Made by a program: the position numbers and the translations under genes
Shown: positions 1,941 to 15,178 of the stretch, piece after piece
Numbering within the stretch: the stretch's first letter is position 1
Layout of the letters: every line of letters starts with the position of its first letter
Notes under the pieces: model-generated
The model's database searches: none
What the model was told of the DNA's origin: nothing
What the model saw: only the letters and a program-made list of their open reading frames with translations
Virus record (IMG/VR): IMGVR_UViG_3300043446_003696
Coordinates: 1-22,460 of that record
Length of the DNA stretch: 22,460 nt
Source: a virus
Direction: 5' to 3' (one strand)

Positions 1941-2110
1941 CCCTCGGGTTCCAGAGAAACAATCTCAAGTTCGTCTCCTTCAGGTTCAATCCACTCATAG
2001 AACTCTGCAAGAATAGCGCGAGCATCCTCTTTATCGATACTCATATCTGCTGCACGATCAAGAGACCATTCCCTCACATGTGCAACGATATCTTCAGTCG
2101 TTGTTTCCAT
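1937..2110 (-). CDS. Hypothetical acidic 57-aa protein
   Basis: Product METTTEDIVAHVREW...EIVSLEPEG, strongly acidic (many Glu and Asp), predicted mostly helical, with no membrane segment. I do not recognise it. I chose ATG 2108-2110, although the frame stays open further upstream. This start overlaps the end of the GIY-YIG gene by only 17 nt, and a consensus promoter (2148-2176) would start transcription about 30 nt before it. There is no clear Shine-Dalgarno. Small acidic early proteins of phages often bind host proteins, but nothing specific is shown here. Confidence 0.7.
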   Translation of the reverse strand: METTTEDIVAHVREWSLDRAADMSIDKEDARAILAEFYEWIEPEGDELEIVSLEPEG

Positions 2111-2537
2111 AATAATCTTTTCGGAAGTACCTGTTGAGGATGTTGCTATTGTAGAACGCTGGGACTCCGTTGTCAAGCGATTCTGTAAGGACATTGTGGT
2201 TGAAGAGTCGTCTGGTCTCCTCAAAGTTTGTTTTGCCCTTTGTTTTATGTAATGATAAGATAGTTCTACTAAAATTTTCTCTGCCAAATTTGTCAATGTC
2301 TTCTTTAAGTTCCGGACAAGACCCATAGTATTCCTTCCAATTTGATTCTGATTTTACCTTTCTTTTTTTACCTTTTGGTGTTCTAAACTGCCAAAGATAT
2401 TTTCTACCAATATATTTCCTACCATTCAGTTTATTTTCTATCAAATAAACAAATCCATAATGTGAACCAATATCATCACTGGTAAAAGGAGTTCCATTAT
2501 AAGTCCAGGGATTTTCATAGTCAATACCTATACTCAT
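2094..2537 (-). CDS. GIY-YIG endonuclease, SegE-like
   Basis: 147-aa protein. The start is ATG 2535-2537 (MSIGIDYENPW). Residues about 27-45 hold the GIY-YIG signature in the SegE-type form: YGFVYLI, then NGRKYIGRKYLW. Further on are WKEYYGSC and a Glu-rich helix with an FGRENF motif, as in phage Seg proteins. Seg-type enzymes are free-standing homing endonucleases that cut related phage DNA and spread their own gene. No separate DNA-binding domain is evident, so it may be a reduced nuclease with another role. It sits beside the nrd genes, a common site for phage homing endonucleases. Two consensus promoter sequences (2148-2176 and 2496-2524) lie within the gene. Confidence 0.82.
   Translation of the reverse strand: MSIGIDYENPWTYNGTPFTSDDIGSHYGFVYLIENKLNGRKYIGRKYLWQFRTPKGKKRKVKSESNWKEYYGSCPELKEDIDKFGRENFSRTILSLHKTKGKTNFEETRRLFNHNVLTESLDNGVPAFYNSNILNRYFRKDYYGNND
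2148..2176 (-). promoter_or_regulatory. sigma70-type early promoter (TTGACA-17-TACAAT)
   Basis: -35 TTGACA at 2171-2176, spacer 17, -10 TACAAT at 2148-2153, within the 3' part of the GIY-YIG gene. Predicted start is near 2141, giving a leader of about 30 nt for the 57-aa gene. Confidence 0.7.
2496..2524 (-). promoter_or_regulatory. sigma70-type promoter (TTGACT-17-TATAAT) inside the GIY-YIG gene
   Basis: -35 TTGACT at 2519-2524, spacer 17, perfect -10 TATAAT at 2496-2501. It lies just after the start codon of the GIY-YIG gene, so RNA would begin inside the coding region near 2489. It could drive the downstream 57-aa gene or an N-terminally shortened nuclease; no in-frame ATG follows before the GIY motif. 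Confidence 0.5.
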
Positions 2538-2682
2538 CAATTATGTCAAGAACTTCGTTCAAATATTTATGGGCAAGGCCTTTCATATCCATATCATGCC
2601 TAATGTGTTCATTATATAAACTATTTTTTAACTTTAAGACACGAACTTTTAATTCATCTTTACTTATTTGATTTTTAGACAT
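2521..2682 (-). CDS. Hypothetical 53-aa basic helical protein
   Basis: Minus-strand ORF from ATG 2680-2682 to TGA 2521-2523. The product begins MSKNQISKDEL and ends LDIIDEYRY; it is lysine-rich and probably helical. I do not recognise it. The ATG follows directly on the T7 run of a terminator-like hairpin (2683-2704), with a TATAGATA octamer beyond it: the same layout as at 806-845. Its 3' end overlaps the GIY-YIG start by 17 nt, suggesting coupling. Confidence 0.6.
   Translation of the reverse strand: MSKNQISKDELKVRVLKLKNSLYNEHIRHDMDMKGLAHKYLNEVLDIIDEYRY
2564..2571 (-). promoter_or_regulatory. Late-type octamer CATAAATA
   Basis: One change from the T4 late consensus, 27 nt upstream of the GIY-YIG ATG and inside the 53-aa ORF. 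Position fits a late promoter for the endonuclease. Confidence 0.4.
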
Positions 2683-2871: not shown

Positions 2872-4030
2872 CCTGCTTAATGCCCCCTACGACATATGAT
2901 TCTACCTCAGTTTCCTGTGGGGCAACCTGAAGACCTTTGGAAGAAATCCAGTGCTGTGTCCAAGGAAGTGGATTATTGTTTGCCGAAATATCGTATTGTG
3001 GTTTGAGACCAATCGCTTTAAGTCTACGATTTGCAATCCACTCAATATATTGTTGAAGAAGTTTATCATTAAGTCCAATCATACTTCCATCTTTGAACAG
3101 ATAATCTGCCCATTTTTTTTCTTCATTTACAGCACGGTCAAACATTTTATAAGTCCACTCTTCTTCTTCTTTCATAATCTTTTGCATTTCTGGATCATCA
3201 CCTTCCCTCCACTTATTCAGAATGTTCTGAGTAAGTGCTAGGTGTTGATTTTCATCTCTTGCAATAAGAGAGATAATTTTTGCCGATCCTTCCATGAGCT
3301 TGAGTTCACCAAAGGCGAAACTACAAGCAAAACTAACGTAGAAGCGAATACCTTCAAGAATATTAACGTTTGCGACTGCTCTGTACAGTTTTCGTTTGAC
3401 ATCGTTGAGAGTTTCCTTTGCGTTTTGTACTCCTTCAAGTCTGAACATCCAATCGCTGGATGTACCATAACTTTGTGCGGATTGAATAAAGTCATCATAT
3501 GACTCCGTAACGCTCTTAGCACGTTCTAGAATACGCTCATCGTGAATGATAGTATCAAACACCTCAGAGGGGTCTGGATAGATGTTTTTGATGATATATG
3601 TGTATGAACGACTATGAATCATTTCCATAAATCCCCAGACTTCCATACACGCTTCAAGTTCAGGAAGAGAACAATAAGGAATAAATGCCATACCAGGACC
3701 ACGACCCTGAACAGAATCAAGCATAATCTGATACTTCAGATTAGAAGTATAGATATGCTTCTGCTCAGGACGAAGAGTTTGATAATCTCCACGATCCTTC
3801 TGAAGAGACACCTCTTCAGGTCTCCAGAAGTATCCAAGTTGTTGAGTAGTCAGTTTATCAAAAATAGGATATTTGTATGAATCGTACCTTTGAATCCCAA
3901 GAGGTCTACCAAAAAACATAGGTTGCTTTTTTGTATCAACTTGTTCAGTATTAAATACTGTCATTCCTTTAATATTTGTTTCTTGATCTTCCATAGAAGA
4001 AACTTTAAAATCAAACTGCACAGGATTCAC
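2834..4030 (-). CDS. nrdB: Ribonucleotide reductase class I beta subunit (R2)
   Basis: The beta subunit carries the diiron-tyrosyl radical used by NrdA to reduce ribonucleotides to deoxyribonucleotides. Conserved iron ligands and radical Tyr can be placed against E. coli R2 (numbers from the GTG start): Asp105 (MLDSVQGR), Glu136 and His139 (FMEMIHSRSY), Tyr143 (radical site), Glu226 (ILEGIRF), Glu260 and His263 (ARDENQH). All are present, so the enzyme should be active. The chosen start is GTG 4028-4030, because AGGAGG lies 6 nt upstream, inside the last codons of nrdA; ATGs at 3994 and 3964 are alternatives (the latter gives MTVFNTEQ). The 20-nt overlap with nrdA couples translation and keeps subunit ratios matched. 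Length of about 376-398 aa is usual. Phages use it to supply dNTPs during infection. Confidence 0.97.
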   Translation of the reverse strand: MNPVQFDFKVSSMEDQETNIKGMTVFNTEQVDTKKQPMFFGRPLGIQRYDSYKYPIFDKLTTQQLGYFWRPEEVSLQKDRGDYQTLRPEQKHIYTSNLKYQIMLDSVQGRGPGMAFIPYCSLPELEACMEVWGFMEMIHSRSYTYIIKNIYPDPSEVFDTIIHDERILERAKSVTESYDDFIQSAQSYGTSSDWMFRLEGVQNAKETLNDVKRKLYRAVANVNILEGIRFYVSFACSFAFGELKLMEGSAKIISLIARDENQHLALTQNILNKWREGDDPEMQKIMKEEEEWTYKMFDRAVNEEKKWADYLFKDGSMIGLNDKLLQQYIEWIANRRLKAIGLKPQYDISANNNPLPWTQHWISSKGLQVAPQETEVESYVVGGIKQDVTKNTFAGFQL

Positions 4031-12982: not shown

Positions 12983-12990
12983 TATTTATC
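12983..12990 (-). promoter_or_regulatory. Late-type octamer GATAAATA fused to a stop codon
   Basis: TGATAAATA: the octamer overlaps the TGA stop (12989-12991) of the 464-aa gene and lies 21 nt upstream of the nucleotidyltransferase ATG. Confidence 0.6.
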
Positions 12991-14383
12991 AATACAGTTT
13001 TCCAAAAGGACCGAACTTATTGCCTTTTTTGATTGCAAGAAACACAATATCCGTCCAAACTTCTGATTGTTTTTTCTCTGGTGTTATTTTAAAAATAGAA
13101 TCTAAAAAAGCAAGTTGCATTAATTTTGCATTTGCGACATGTGGTTTTTCAAAAAATGCAGCTTTCATATTTTTGTCAAATTGCACATTACTTATAATTC
13201 CAGTTTCAACTTTTGTTTTCACCCTATCGAACATAGATTTAAATTCATCCGCTTTTTTTGAATATTCATCCAAAGATTTTGGATAATTACCATTCGCTTT
13301 ATCAAAAGTTTGTCCACAATCTTTTAAAAGTTGAACAACCATTTCTACTTGAGCTTTCCCGCCTCTTGCAGCACCAGCTCCAATTTGCGTTGCTTCCCAT
13401 TTTAAATTACTAAATTTGGAAGAATCATTTGCTTTAATTTGAAACTTAAATCCTTTGCCATTCCTTTTTGTCAATTTAACAATAGTATCTTGTGTCATAT
13501 TTTCGGTCAATTTAATAGTGACTTCAACATTAGGAAAATTATAATCATCAATTTCTTCCAATGTTAATTGTTCAACATTGTATTCTTCAAATTTTGCTTG
13601 CTGTCCTGATACTTTTTTCAAAGATATACCAACCAATTTTCTCTCTTTATATAAAGATCTCATTACAGCATTTAATTCTTCTATGGTTTGACTACCTTTA
13701 CTTCCATCAACAGTCTTATCTATTACATCGGTAATTTTTTTGACTGAAGATTTAATTAACCACATATCAGCTGGGTCCCAATTATCTTTTTTTGATATTC
13801 CAAATTTCTTGACTATAAGACCACTAATATACTCCATAAAAGAACCATTGCCACTATGGTCAAAAATATTCCACTGACTACTAGAAAACTCATCAAACAT
13901 TTTTTTATGCTGCTTCCAAAACACTTCCATCCATTCAAATTCAACAGTTGGATATACTTTTTTGATGCCTTCCATCGTTTCTTTATCGTTCATCATATCT
14001 TCAACAGACTTCCAAGTAATATTATCTTTCAAGACTCTTTCAAAAACATAAGTAGAAGCCTTTTCTTGCATCAAAGTTGTTTTAGCATCTGCAGCTTTAG
14101 TTGCTGTTGGTTTATATGTAATCGTTACCGATTTTAAAGATGACTTTGGATCAAATGAAATAATTGTGGATGGAAAAGAAGATCCACTCACTACTTTTGA
14201 CATATATGGAATTTTCTTTTTATCAAGCATTTCATGAATCTTAGACGAAGTTTCAATTCTATTGGCAGTTCCAACTTTTAGTTTTTTTGTTGTTTTTGTT
14301 GAGGTTTCATTAATTAAAAGAGATCTATCAAGTTTCAATTCTTCCAAAACATCTACAAATTCCGGAACCTTAGCAAAAGCCAT
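12989..14383 (-). CDS. Conserved cyanophage protein, 464 aa, function unknown
   Basis: From ATG 14381-14383 (MAFAKVPEFVDVL). Mixed alpha/beta protein, lysine-rich, with no signal peptide or membrane segment. Notable segments: an N-terminal stretch ending LLINE|TS (fits the L/I-x-E prohead-protease rule), WMEVFWKQHKKMFDEF, DNWDPADMWLIKSS, KLVGISLKKVSGQQAKFEEY and a C-terminus NKFGPFGKLY. The DPADMWL...GISLKK pair resembles the spacing of PD-(D/E)xK nuclease cores (an Asp-containing strand, then S-x-K in place of E-x-K), but a key acidic residue is not obvious, so I do not call it a nuclease. It is located among late genes, after tRNA-Ala. TCTAAATA (14409-14416) is the only promoter-like element directly before it. 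The Shine-Dalgarno is not evident. Confidence 0.8.
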   Translation of the reverse strand: MAFAKVPEFVDVLEELKLDRSLLINETSTKTTKKLKVGTANRIETSSKIHEMLDKKKIPYMSKVVSGSSFPSTIISFDPKSSLKSVTITYKPTATKAADAKTTLMQEKASTYVFERVLKDNITWKSVEDMMNDKETMEGIKKVYPTVEFEWMEVFWKQHKKMFDEFSSSQWNIFDHSGNGSFMEYISGLIVKKFGISKKDNWDPADMWLIKSSVKKITDVIDKTVDGSKGSQTIEELNAVMRSLYKERKLVGISLKKVSGQQAKFEEYNVEQLTLEEIDDYNFPNVEVTIKLTENMTQDTIVKLTKRNGKGFKFQIKANDSSKFSNLKWEATQIGAGAARGGKAQVEMVVQLLKDCGQTFDKANGNYPKSLDEYSKKADEFKSMFDRVKTKVETGIISNVQFDKNMKAAFFEKPHVANAKLMQLAFLDSIFKITPEKKQSEVWTDIVFLAIKKGNKFGPFGKLY

Positions 14384-14408: not shown

Positions 14409-14416
14409 TATTTAGA
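14409..14416 (-). promoter_or_regulatory. Variant late octamer TCTAAATA
   Basis: 26 nt upstream of the 464-aa gene, directly after the tRNA-Ala 3' end. It differs from TATAAATA at position 2 only. Confidence 0.35.
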
Positions 14417-14418
14417 AA

Positions 14419-14491
14419 TGGAGAATACCGGACTCGAACCGGTCACCCCTGCCGTGCAAAGGCAGTGCTCTACCAAATGAGCTAATTCCCC
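14419..14491 (-). tRNA. tRNA-Ala (anticodon UGC)
   Basis: 73-nt cloverleaf. The acceptor arm GGGGAAT pairs with ATTCTCC and carries a G3-U70 wobble, the universal identity element for alanyl-tRNA synthetase. The D arm has AGCTCATTTGGTAGAGC. The anticodon stem CTGCC/GGCAG closes a TTTGCAC loop, giving anticodon UGC. The T loop GTTCGAG is normal, the discriminator is A, and CCA is not encoded. It reads GCA and other GCN codons. It has its own early promoter (14502-14530). Confidence 0.95.
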
Positions 14492-14501
14492 AAGTTCAGA
14501 C

Positions 14502-14530
14502 ATTATAAAACCCCTCAACTAAAAAGTCAA
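14502..14530 (-). promoter_or_regulatory. Early promoter (TTGACT-17-TATAAT) built into a terminator
   Basis: -35 TTGACT at 14525-14530 is part of the stem of the terminator at 14509-14536. The spacer is 17 bp and the perfect -10 TATAAT is at 14502-14507. Predicted start (about 14495) is a few nt before the tRNA-Ala 5' end (14491), leaving almost no leader. Confidence 0.85.
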
Positions 14531-14536
14531 GGGGTT
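14509..14536 (-). terminator. Terminator hairpin sharing DNA with the tRNA promoter
   Basis: Arms 14509-14520 and 14525-14536 pair over 12 bp (two G-U) around a 4-nt loop, followed by TTATAAT. It ends the 188-aa gene. The T-run is poor (interrupted by A), so some read-through is expected. Confidence 0.72.
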
Positions 14537-14553
14537 AGAGCAACCTTCCGCTT

Positions 14554-14561
14554 TATTTATC
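14554..14561 (-). promoter_or_regulatory. Late-type octamer GATAAATA fused to a stop codon
   Basis: TGATAAATA overlaps the TGA stop (14560-14562) of the 188-aa gene. A late transcript from here would meet the 14509-14536 hairpin early and might read through into tRNA-Ala and the 464-aa gene. Confidence 0.4.
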
Positions 14562-15126
14562 AGCGAACATTAGCAGCATACCACTTCTCAAAGGCCTCTC
14601 TACTCTTATTTCCTCTTGGGGGCATAGGAGTTCTTTCTCCACGAACAGGAGCATACTTTTTCTTTTCTTCTTTATCGTGTCCTTCTGGATTTTCTCTTGC
14701 TGCTTGTGCTTCACCAAGAATAATATCAATTGCTTCCTCATCAATCACATTCGCCATAATCCACTCTGCTTCTTCCAGAGTTTCTGCATATCCTTCTGCT
14801 TGGAGGAACTCAAGAACTACATCAAAGATATCAAGTTCTTCTCTTGTTAAATCAGGATCAACTCTAACATTTGATCCTGTTCTTTCATTTCTTCTTGCTG
14901 CCATTATATTAGTTCTCCGTGCTCTATGAAATGCTTTACCTGGAGAACCAGCACCACCATCTTCTCTATCAGATTGACGATTTCTAGCATCTACAACTCT
15001 CTGAACTTTTTTATCAGAAAGTTCATCAAGTTGCTCAATTTCATCTACTTGATCAACTTGAGGAGAATAAATTGCTTGATATGCTTCAAACATTCCGAAA
15101 GCATCTTTTCCAGTAAGTCTAGACAT
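14560..15126 (-). CDS. Conserved cyanophage protein, 188 aa (putative head/core protein)
   Basis: From ATG 15124-15126 (MSRLTGKDAFGMFEAY). The N-terminus has IEQLDE|LSDKK, which fits a gp21-type L-x-E site, and resembles the TQLDE|KTLS of the 633-aa protein. The middle is basic (KAFHRARRTNIMAARRNERTG) and is followed by a helical acidic region (LDIFDVVLEFLQAEGYAETL, EEAEWIMANVIDEEAIDIIL) and a C-terminal tail PMPPRGNKSREAFEKWYAA. I recall this C-terminal half as a frequently occurring, unnamed module in T4-like cyanophages. No enzyme motif is seen. A perfect TATAAATA late promoter (15151-15158) lies 25 nt upstream, so it is a late, probably virion, gene. Confidence 0.78.
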   Translation of the reverse strand: MSRLTGKDAFGMFEAYQAIYSPQVDQVDEIEQLDELSDKKVQRVVDARNRQSDREDGGAGSPGKAFHRARRTNIMAARRNERTGSNVRVDPDLTREELDIFDVVLEFLQAEGYAETLEEAEWIMANVIDEEAIDIILGEAQAARENPEGHDKEEKKKYAPVRGERTPMPPRGNKSREAFEKWYAANVR

Positions 15127-15150: not shown

Positions 15151-15158
15151 TATTTATA
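15151..15158 (-). promoter_or_regulatory. T4 late promoter TATAAATA
   Basis: Perfect octamer 25 nt upstream of the 188-aa gene. As at 9366-9373, its first T is the last T of the preceding terminator. Confidence 0.82.
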
Positions 15159-15178
15159 AAAAAAGACCCCGAAGGGTC
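15158..15178 (-). terminator. Rho-independent terminator of the replication operon
   Basis: GACCC/GGGTC stem (15165-15169 and 15174-15178) with a stable UUCG-type tetraloop, followed by seven T (15158-15164). It overlaps the stop codon of the 58-aa gene and marks the end of the ten-gene unit from 22170. Confidence 0.88.

Follow-up and report, generated by a model that had tools for sequence, protein, structure and literature searches.

A predicted sigma-70 early promoter and a terminator-like RNA hairpin occupy the same DNA directly upstream of a tRNA-Ala(UGC) gene in a relative of T4-like cyanophages. Promoter sequence and hairpin overlap exactly, are conserved and constrained jointly in related viruses, and form, together with a late-promoter box and a short leader, one cassette at one locus. 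The element probably divides two transcription units of the same strand: the hairpin would end or trim the upstream RNA, and the sigma-70 promoter would start the tRNA early in infection.

The window, namely the whole 22,460-base stretch analysed, is an IMG/VR virus record. Its minus strand contains genes of DNA polymerase, UvsX, helicase, MazG, cytidyltransferase and ribonucleotide reductase. Between the gene of a 188-aa protein and the tRNA-Ala gene, the minus strand reads TGATAAATAAAGCGGAAGGTTGCTCTAACCCCTTGACTTTTTAGTTGAGGGGTTTTATAATGTCTGAACTT and then passes into the tRNA (Table 1). On the mazG side, a terminator fused to a late box (15151-15178) closes the preceding unit and opens the upstream late gene. 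The first-pass annotation had regarded the 188-aa gene as a late unit, which agrees with the late box immediately preceding it (15151-15157) and with the annotation of its S-SCSM1 relative as a virion protein.

Table 1. Features at and around the fused element (positions in the window)
Feature	Position	Strand	Remark
Terminator GACCC-TTCG-GGGTC + T7, U-tract continuing into late box (TTTTTTTATAAATA)	15151..15178	-	
Upstream gene, 188 aa, function unassigned	14560..15126	-	Variable family with a common C-terminal domain
T4-type late-promoter box ATAAATA (GATAAATA, 14561-14554)	14554..14560	-	Overlaps the upstream gene's stop codon
Conserved leader GGAAGGTTGCTCT	14537..14549	-	First bases at the expected late-transcript start
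12-bp terminator-like hairpin	14509..14536	-	
-35 hexamer TTGACT	14525..14530	-	Within the 5' arm of the hairpin
-10 hexamer TATAAT	14502..14507	-	First T is the 4th T of the short U-tract 14510-14507
Predicted early start site of the tRNA transcript	~14495	-	~7 nt past the -10; predicted from spacing
tRNA-Ala(UGC), G1 at 14491	14419..14491	-	G3:U70 identity pair present; CCA not encoded
CTAAATA, late-box-like	14409..14415	-	Between the tRNA and the next gene
Downstream gene phrog_1462, function unassigned	12989..14383	-	Presumed virion protein

The hairpin, read on the minus strand from 14536 to 14509, is AACCCCTTGACT-TTTT-AGTTGAGGGGTT, and the 51-nt stretch containing it has a folding energy of -17.1 kcal/mol (z -3.6). 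The promoter, TTGACT-N17-TATAAT on the same strand, has both hexamers with a spacing within 16-18 nt, matches at 11 of 12 positions and is among the five best sites of the scanned 14.5 kb. It lies 10 nt from the tRNA, and the predicted start precedes the tRNA by 4 nt. Both this start within about 4 nt of the tRNA 5' end and the location of TATAAT in the terminator tail had been proposed in the first-pass annotation; its placement of TTGACT in the 3' strand of the stem is true for the plus strand only, the hexamer being in the 5' arm on the transcribed minus strand.

The sense RNA contains a stable GC-rich hairpin, typical for intrinsic terminators, but the U-rich tract of about 7-8 nt expected of them is absent, UUUU being followed here by AUAAU. 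The hairpin at 14536-14509 was not listed by a consensus terminator scan. Its approximate d'Aubenton-Carafa-style score is negative (-13 to -32, varying with the stem cut), compared with +19.5 for the terminator at 15178-15165. As a terminator, the hairpin is probably weak and leaky. Of the earlier proposal that one 35-bp element both stops the upstream unit and starts the tRNA, the overlap of hairpin and promoter stands, while strong termination is at odds with the weak U-tract.

The combination of a -35 hexamer in a GC hairpin with a -10 hexamer, each matching at 5/6 or better, has one instance in the window, compared with 0.017 per Markov-simulated window. In five long records, the -35 lies inside a GC hairpin at 14 of 185 strict sigma-70 sites and at 4 of 575 TTGAC[AT] sequences without a -10 (p = 2e-6). 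Conservation in relatives is a stronger argument against chance than the simulated-window count. Recurrence of the arrangement in related phages, named as a check in the first-pass annotation, was confirmed: besides this virus, the element is present in more than 100 related viral DNA fragments. These metagenomic sites are of common ancestry, the island perhaps having been passed on by recombination, and the counts given below are not independent events.

Among relatives picked via the upstream protein, irrespective of the element, those with tRNA-Ala directly behind the gene have TTGAC inside a hairpin together with TATAAT or TATACT. With a pattern scan, 80 loci with the element were fetched, 65 of them distinct, with tRNA-Ala next in 52; several of the remaining sites are located at a contig edge or have a tRNA-like sequence overlooked by ARAGORN. 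Selection by the leader only gave 81 distinct sites, with the hairpin at 80 and both hexamers at 76, a result opposite to the refuting case named in the first-pass annotation, in which relatives with the hairpin would not conserve the hexamers. Selection by promoter and tRNA, blind to the hairpin, gave 40 distinct sites, 27 of them with a hairpin (7 bp or more across the -35); the other 13 comprise 6 plain promoters, 5 spacer hairpins and 2 interrupted hairpins. The distance from the -10 to G1 of the tRNA is 9 or 10 nt at all 40 sites. The element is present in a single copy in each of nine long virus records of 60-215 kb. No match to it was found in the genomes of 84,980 bacterial and archaeal species, and derivation from a host was dropped as an explanation.

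Two kinds of constraint can be separated within the hairpin. In 17 distinct hairpins of equal length (the ungapped set A2, to which pair counting applies), 99% of cells are paired, and the fifth stem pair occurs as A-U, U-A, C-G, G-C and U-G. The covariation score is 0.159, compared with 0.097 +/- 0.010 after shuffling, and none of 500 shuffles reached the observed score. All six -35 columns are invariant on the promoter side of these hairpins, and the only changes in the opposite columns are G-U to G-C and U-G to U-A. G-U cells number 61 among all distinct hairpins, versus one A-C cell. On folding, the sense strand gives -17.0 and the antisense strand -13.2 kcal/mol, with the sense fold better in 21 of 22 cases. 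A bidirectional terminator was rejected, since the antisense fold is weaker and the variation disrupts antisense pairs.

Covariation of the outer stem, together with a frozen -35 strand whose partner drifts through G-U, argues for selection on both the promoter DNA and the sense-RNA hairpin. The element is thereby a natural example of two selections on one DNA stretch that are separable in an alignment, the -35 strand being fixed by the promoter and its partner drifting only within the limits of the RNA hairpin. Because the early start is downstream of the hairpin, the selected minus-strand hairpin RNA must originate upstream. Chance overlap of promoter and hairpin was ruled out by the simulation, the genome test, the covariation and the leader-selected and promoter-plus-tRNA-selected sites.

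The cassette is larger than the hairpin and promoter, and includes the late box (ATAAATA), the leader, the hairpin/promoter and the tRNA. Its position is fixed, between mazG and the virion cluster, the order in most contigs being polymerase, uvsX, helicase, mazG, a variable gene, the cassette, tRNA-Ala, a variable gene and cytidyltransferase, on to primase and nrdA. Upstream genes belong to one family in 55 of 76 cases, and 16 families were found among the genes downstream of the same element, the slot of the downstream gene being filled by many different families in relatives. A second genomic context, without the tRNA, also exists, including in a marine single-cell virus. An unrelated tRNA-Ala(UGC), with G3:U70 kept, is substituted for the tRNA behind the same element in L031, L081, L083, L098, L124 and L141. 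Some cassettes (L059, L071, L137 and L145) have no extra late gene upstream, and insulation from that gene is therefore not the whole reason for the element. Simple insulation also leaves the late box and the conserved leader ahead of the hairpin unexplained.

The late box, 24 nt upstream of the -35, corresponds to NATAAATA, named as the late promoter in S-PM2 (PMC2984593). It is present at 24 of 27 sites with the hairpin and at none of the 13 others (p = 5e-8; 1.7% per site expected by chance). The leader starts 4-5 nt past this box at 103 of 106 sites, at the expected start of a late transcript, and is conserved at 1.03 bits per column, compared with 0.19 further upstream (35 dereplicated cassettes). 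The position of the late box and its link to the hairpin form suggest that late transcription begins just upstream and enters the element.

According to the preferred reading of the element as a divider of two units, RNA from the late gene (15126-14560), or from the late box, would fold into the hairpin, which would end or trim part of the upstream RNA, termination being only partial given the short U-tract. Early in infection, host RNA polymerase with sigma-70 would use TTGACT-N17-TATAAT within the hairpin DNA, and the tRNA-Ala transcript would begin about 4 nt before the mature 5' end. Late transcription would partly continue into the tRNA, which would be expressed both early and late instead of being shut off late.

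In T4-like phages, the late polymerase carries gp55. The first-pass annotation had proposed that a polymerase held up at the terminator would block the promoter, so that transcription from upstream could silence the tRNA (early on, late off). From the coordinates, a polymerase located where the U-tract ends (~14502) would indeed cover the -10 and the start site, and the footprints of the early and late promoters would overlap. Such a switch is nevertheless decidedly unlikely: the U-tract is weak, the late box feeds transcription toward the tRNA, and sigma-70 promoters go quiet without occlusion once the late polymerase has gp55. A leaky terminator makes late shut-off doubtful and late read-through into the tRNA possible, and late read-through or a short late RNA appears at least as likely as silencing by a stalled polymerase. 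Still less probable is recycling, whereby polymerase terminated at the hairpin would stay on the DNA and restart at the overlapping promoter, upstream transcription thus boosting the tRNA. Post-termination polymerase of E. coli slides and re-initiates nearby in vitro in 37-55% of terminations (PMC6978380), but recycling here would require sigma-70, absent from the late polymerase, and no sequence feature demands it.

The late box and leader also bear on a relay from early to late expression, in which the sigma-70 promoter would supply the tRNA early and read-through from the late box, 53 nt further up, would supply it late; the promoters would be mutually exclusive by their overlapping footprints, and RNase P would cut the hairpin leader off the late precursor. 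The tie of the late box to the hairpin form, its regular distance to the leader, the weak terminator and the pairing of early and late promoters, proposed as a 'middle' mode in RB49 and S-PM2 (PMC2984593), are all consistent with such a relay; a conserved hairpin with a U-tract is, however, needless for read-through, and the relay is a tentative alternative only.

The conservation of the leader from the expected late start onwards is also what a late small RNA, about 45-50 nt long, would display, with a 13-nt conserved single-stranded 5' end, a terminator hairpin and a 3' end incidentally bearing the tRNA promoter; the predicted fold, a free 5' end plus the hairpin, fits it. Such a small RNA is unlikely, as no Rfam match besides the tRNA was found at the cassette, three long phage contigs held no convincing target complementary to the leader (one 10-base match outside the element, in G001), and a DNA-binding site adjoining the -35 would give the same picture. 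An alternative leader hairpin, GGUUG-CUC-YAACC, considered as a candidate antiterminator, is present in many variants and, judged by eye, disrupted in L067, L092 and L116. Taken together, a relay or a small-RNA gene, that is, a late promoter 20-25 nt upstream of the hairpin making either a short late RNA (GGAAGGUUGCUCU plus the hairpin) or a late tRNA precursor, with the same hairpin DNA serving as the early tRNA promoter, is conceivable, though doubtful. If true, one 60-bp element would combine an early promoter, a late leader and a terminator, with mutually exclusive promoters.

Among known systems, the closest is the promoter-early stem-loop (PeSL), described in PMC4503421 and PMC3950731, which cite Arbiol 2010 and Comeau 2014, as 'composite conserved promoter-terminator motifs' of T4-like phages; its defining features are partly drawn here from these citing papers. 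PeSLs are linked to gene shuffling; PMC4503421 describes them as dense in hyperplastic regions and reports that S-PM2 does not have them at high density. Like PeSLs, the element unites a sigma-70 early promoter and a terminator-like stem-loop in one short composite intergenic cassette with variable neighbour genes. It differs in the placement of the -35 within an arm of the hairpin, in a U-tract that leads into the -10, in the presence of a late box and leader, in its position before a tRNA, and in its single copy per record, compared with the many similar copies per genome of PeSLs. PeSLs are further characterised by effective termination at the stem-loop, where a weak U-tract is predicted here, and by exchange of flanking genes through recombination between copies. 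Flank variation at the element comprises the 16 downstream families and the second, tRNA-free context; no exchange event or breakpoint was identified. In 50 kb of RB49, the -35 lies in a hairpin at 0 of 40 sites, the hairpins there occupying the spacer, surrounding the -10 or preceding the promoter. Assignment as a plain PeSL was rejected, since copy number and anatomy are unlike those of RB49. Judged by its layout, the element works like a PeSL, yet is a distinct, strongly conserved single-copy variant.

The 'middle' mode promoters are similar in having a sigma-70 site near a late box on one strand, whereas here the hairpin separates the late and early starts and the early -35 belongs to the hairpin. 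Intrinsic terminators of cyanomyoviruses (TransTermHP sets, PMC3037559) likewise have a GC-rich hairpin with T residues, found here 24 nt past the stop codon, but the U-tract of the element is short and broken by the -10 box.

In some relatives the parts of the cassette are separated. S-SCSM1, DSL-LC02 and S-SCSM2R have a plain sigma-70 promoter without a hairpin at the same distance from the tRNA. In Bellamy and SynMITS9220M01, the tRNA directly follows mazG or a small gene and has no promoter, as expected if the promoter matters once the tRNA is separated from the early operon; in Syn9, tRNA-Ala is located elsewhere, inside a tRNA cluster. Where the tRNA was lost (L044/L045 and L228), the hexamers are decayed and the hairpin is retained. 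The tail in L228, the clear case of a hairpin without a promoter in the leader-selected set, is now T6 plus AATAAATA.

Other arrangements were observed at or near the same site. In L203, near 4374, the leader runs directly into the 3' half of a tRNA-Ala, the hairpin, the promoter and the 5' half of the tRNA having apparently been deleted. In L298 (S-SRM01), L266, L267, L273, L283 and L295, a hairpin ACCTAAT-GCCG-ATTAGGT exactly spans the spacer between -35 and -10 before tRNA-Ala, resembling some elements of RB49. At the syntenic site of Bellamy (L198, ~2649-2667) and SynMITS9220M01 (L197, ~2481-2499), a UUCG-loop hairpin, ACCC-TTCG-GGGT, directly adjoins the promoterless tRNA-Ala.

Fusion of a terminator to the following promoter is a feature of compact T4-like cyanophages, for early and also for late promoters. 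Further hairpin-embedded early promoters number only 1-3 per record, and in most of them TTGAC is located in the loop and a full U-tract is followed by the -10. Such a composite, with TTGACA or TTGACT in the loop, was found in L001-L007, L011-L014, L018 and L022-L026; it is located just downstream of a homologue of the 188-aa gene, and the gene after it resembles the SegE-type GIY-YIG endonuclease gene at window positions 2094-2540. In five virus records, the late box TATAAATA stands right after the U-tract in 12 of 168 T-runs behind a hairpin, compared with 5 of 13,960 other T-runs. The window contains one such case at 9404-9366 (minus strand), and the fusion of terminator and late box at 15178-15151 (minus strand) is a further one, with a hairpin below the cut-off length. 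In the fused tRNA element, which is small and clonable, occlusion, polymerase recycling and early/late read-through are directly testable.

A second structured RNA was found in the window before another tRNA. An abiF RNA (RF03085, 53.8 bits, cut-off 37) is located at 347-311 on the minus strand, immediately before tRNA-Arg (305-233), with a TTGACA-N17-TACAAT promoter, bearing an inverted repeat around the -10, upstream of it (near 420-390). No gene of an abortive-infection protein was seen beside it in the window, and the Pfam search was null for the ORF 398-847; the RNA could be a phage-borne decoy of the RNA partner of host AbiF. The pair of abiF RNA and tRNA recurs in the 215-kb record L160, at 3050-3086 (51.7 bits) and 3092-3165, respectively.
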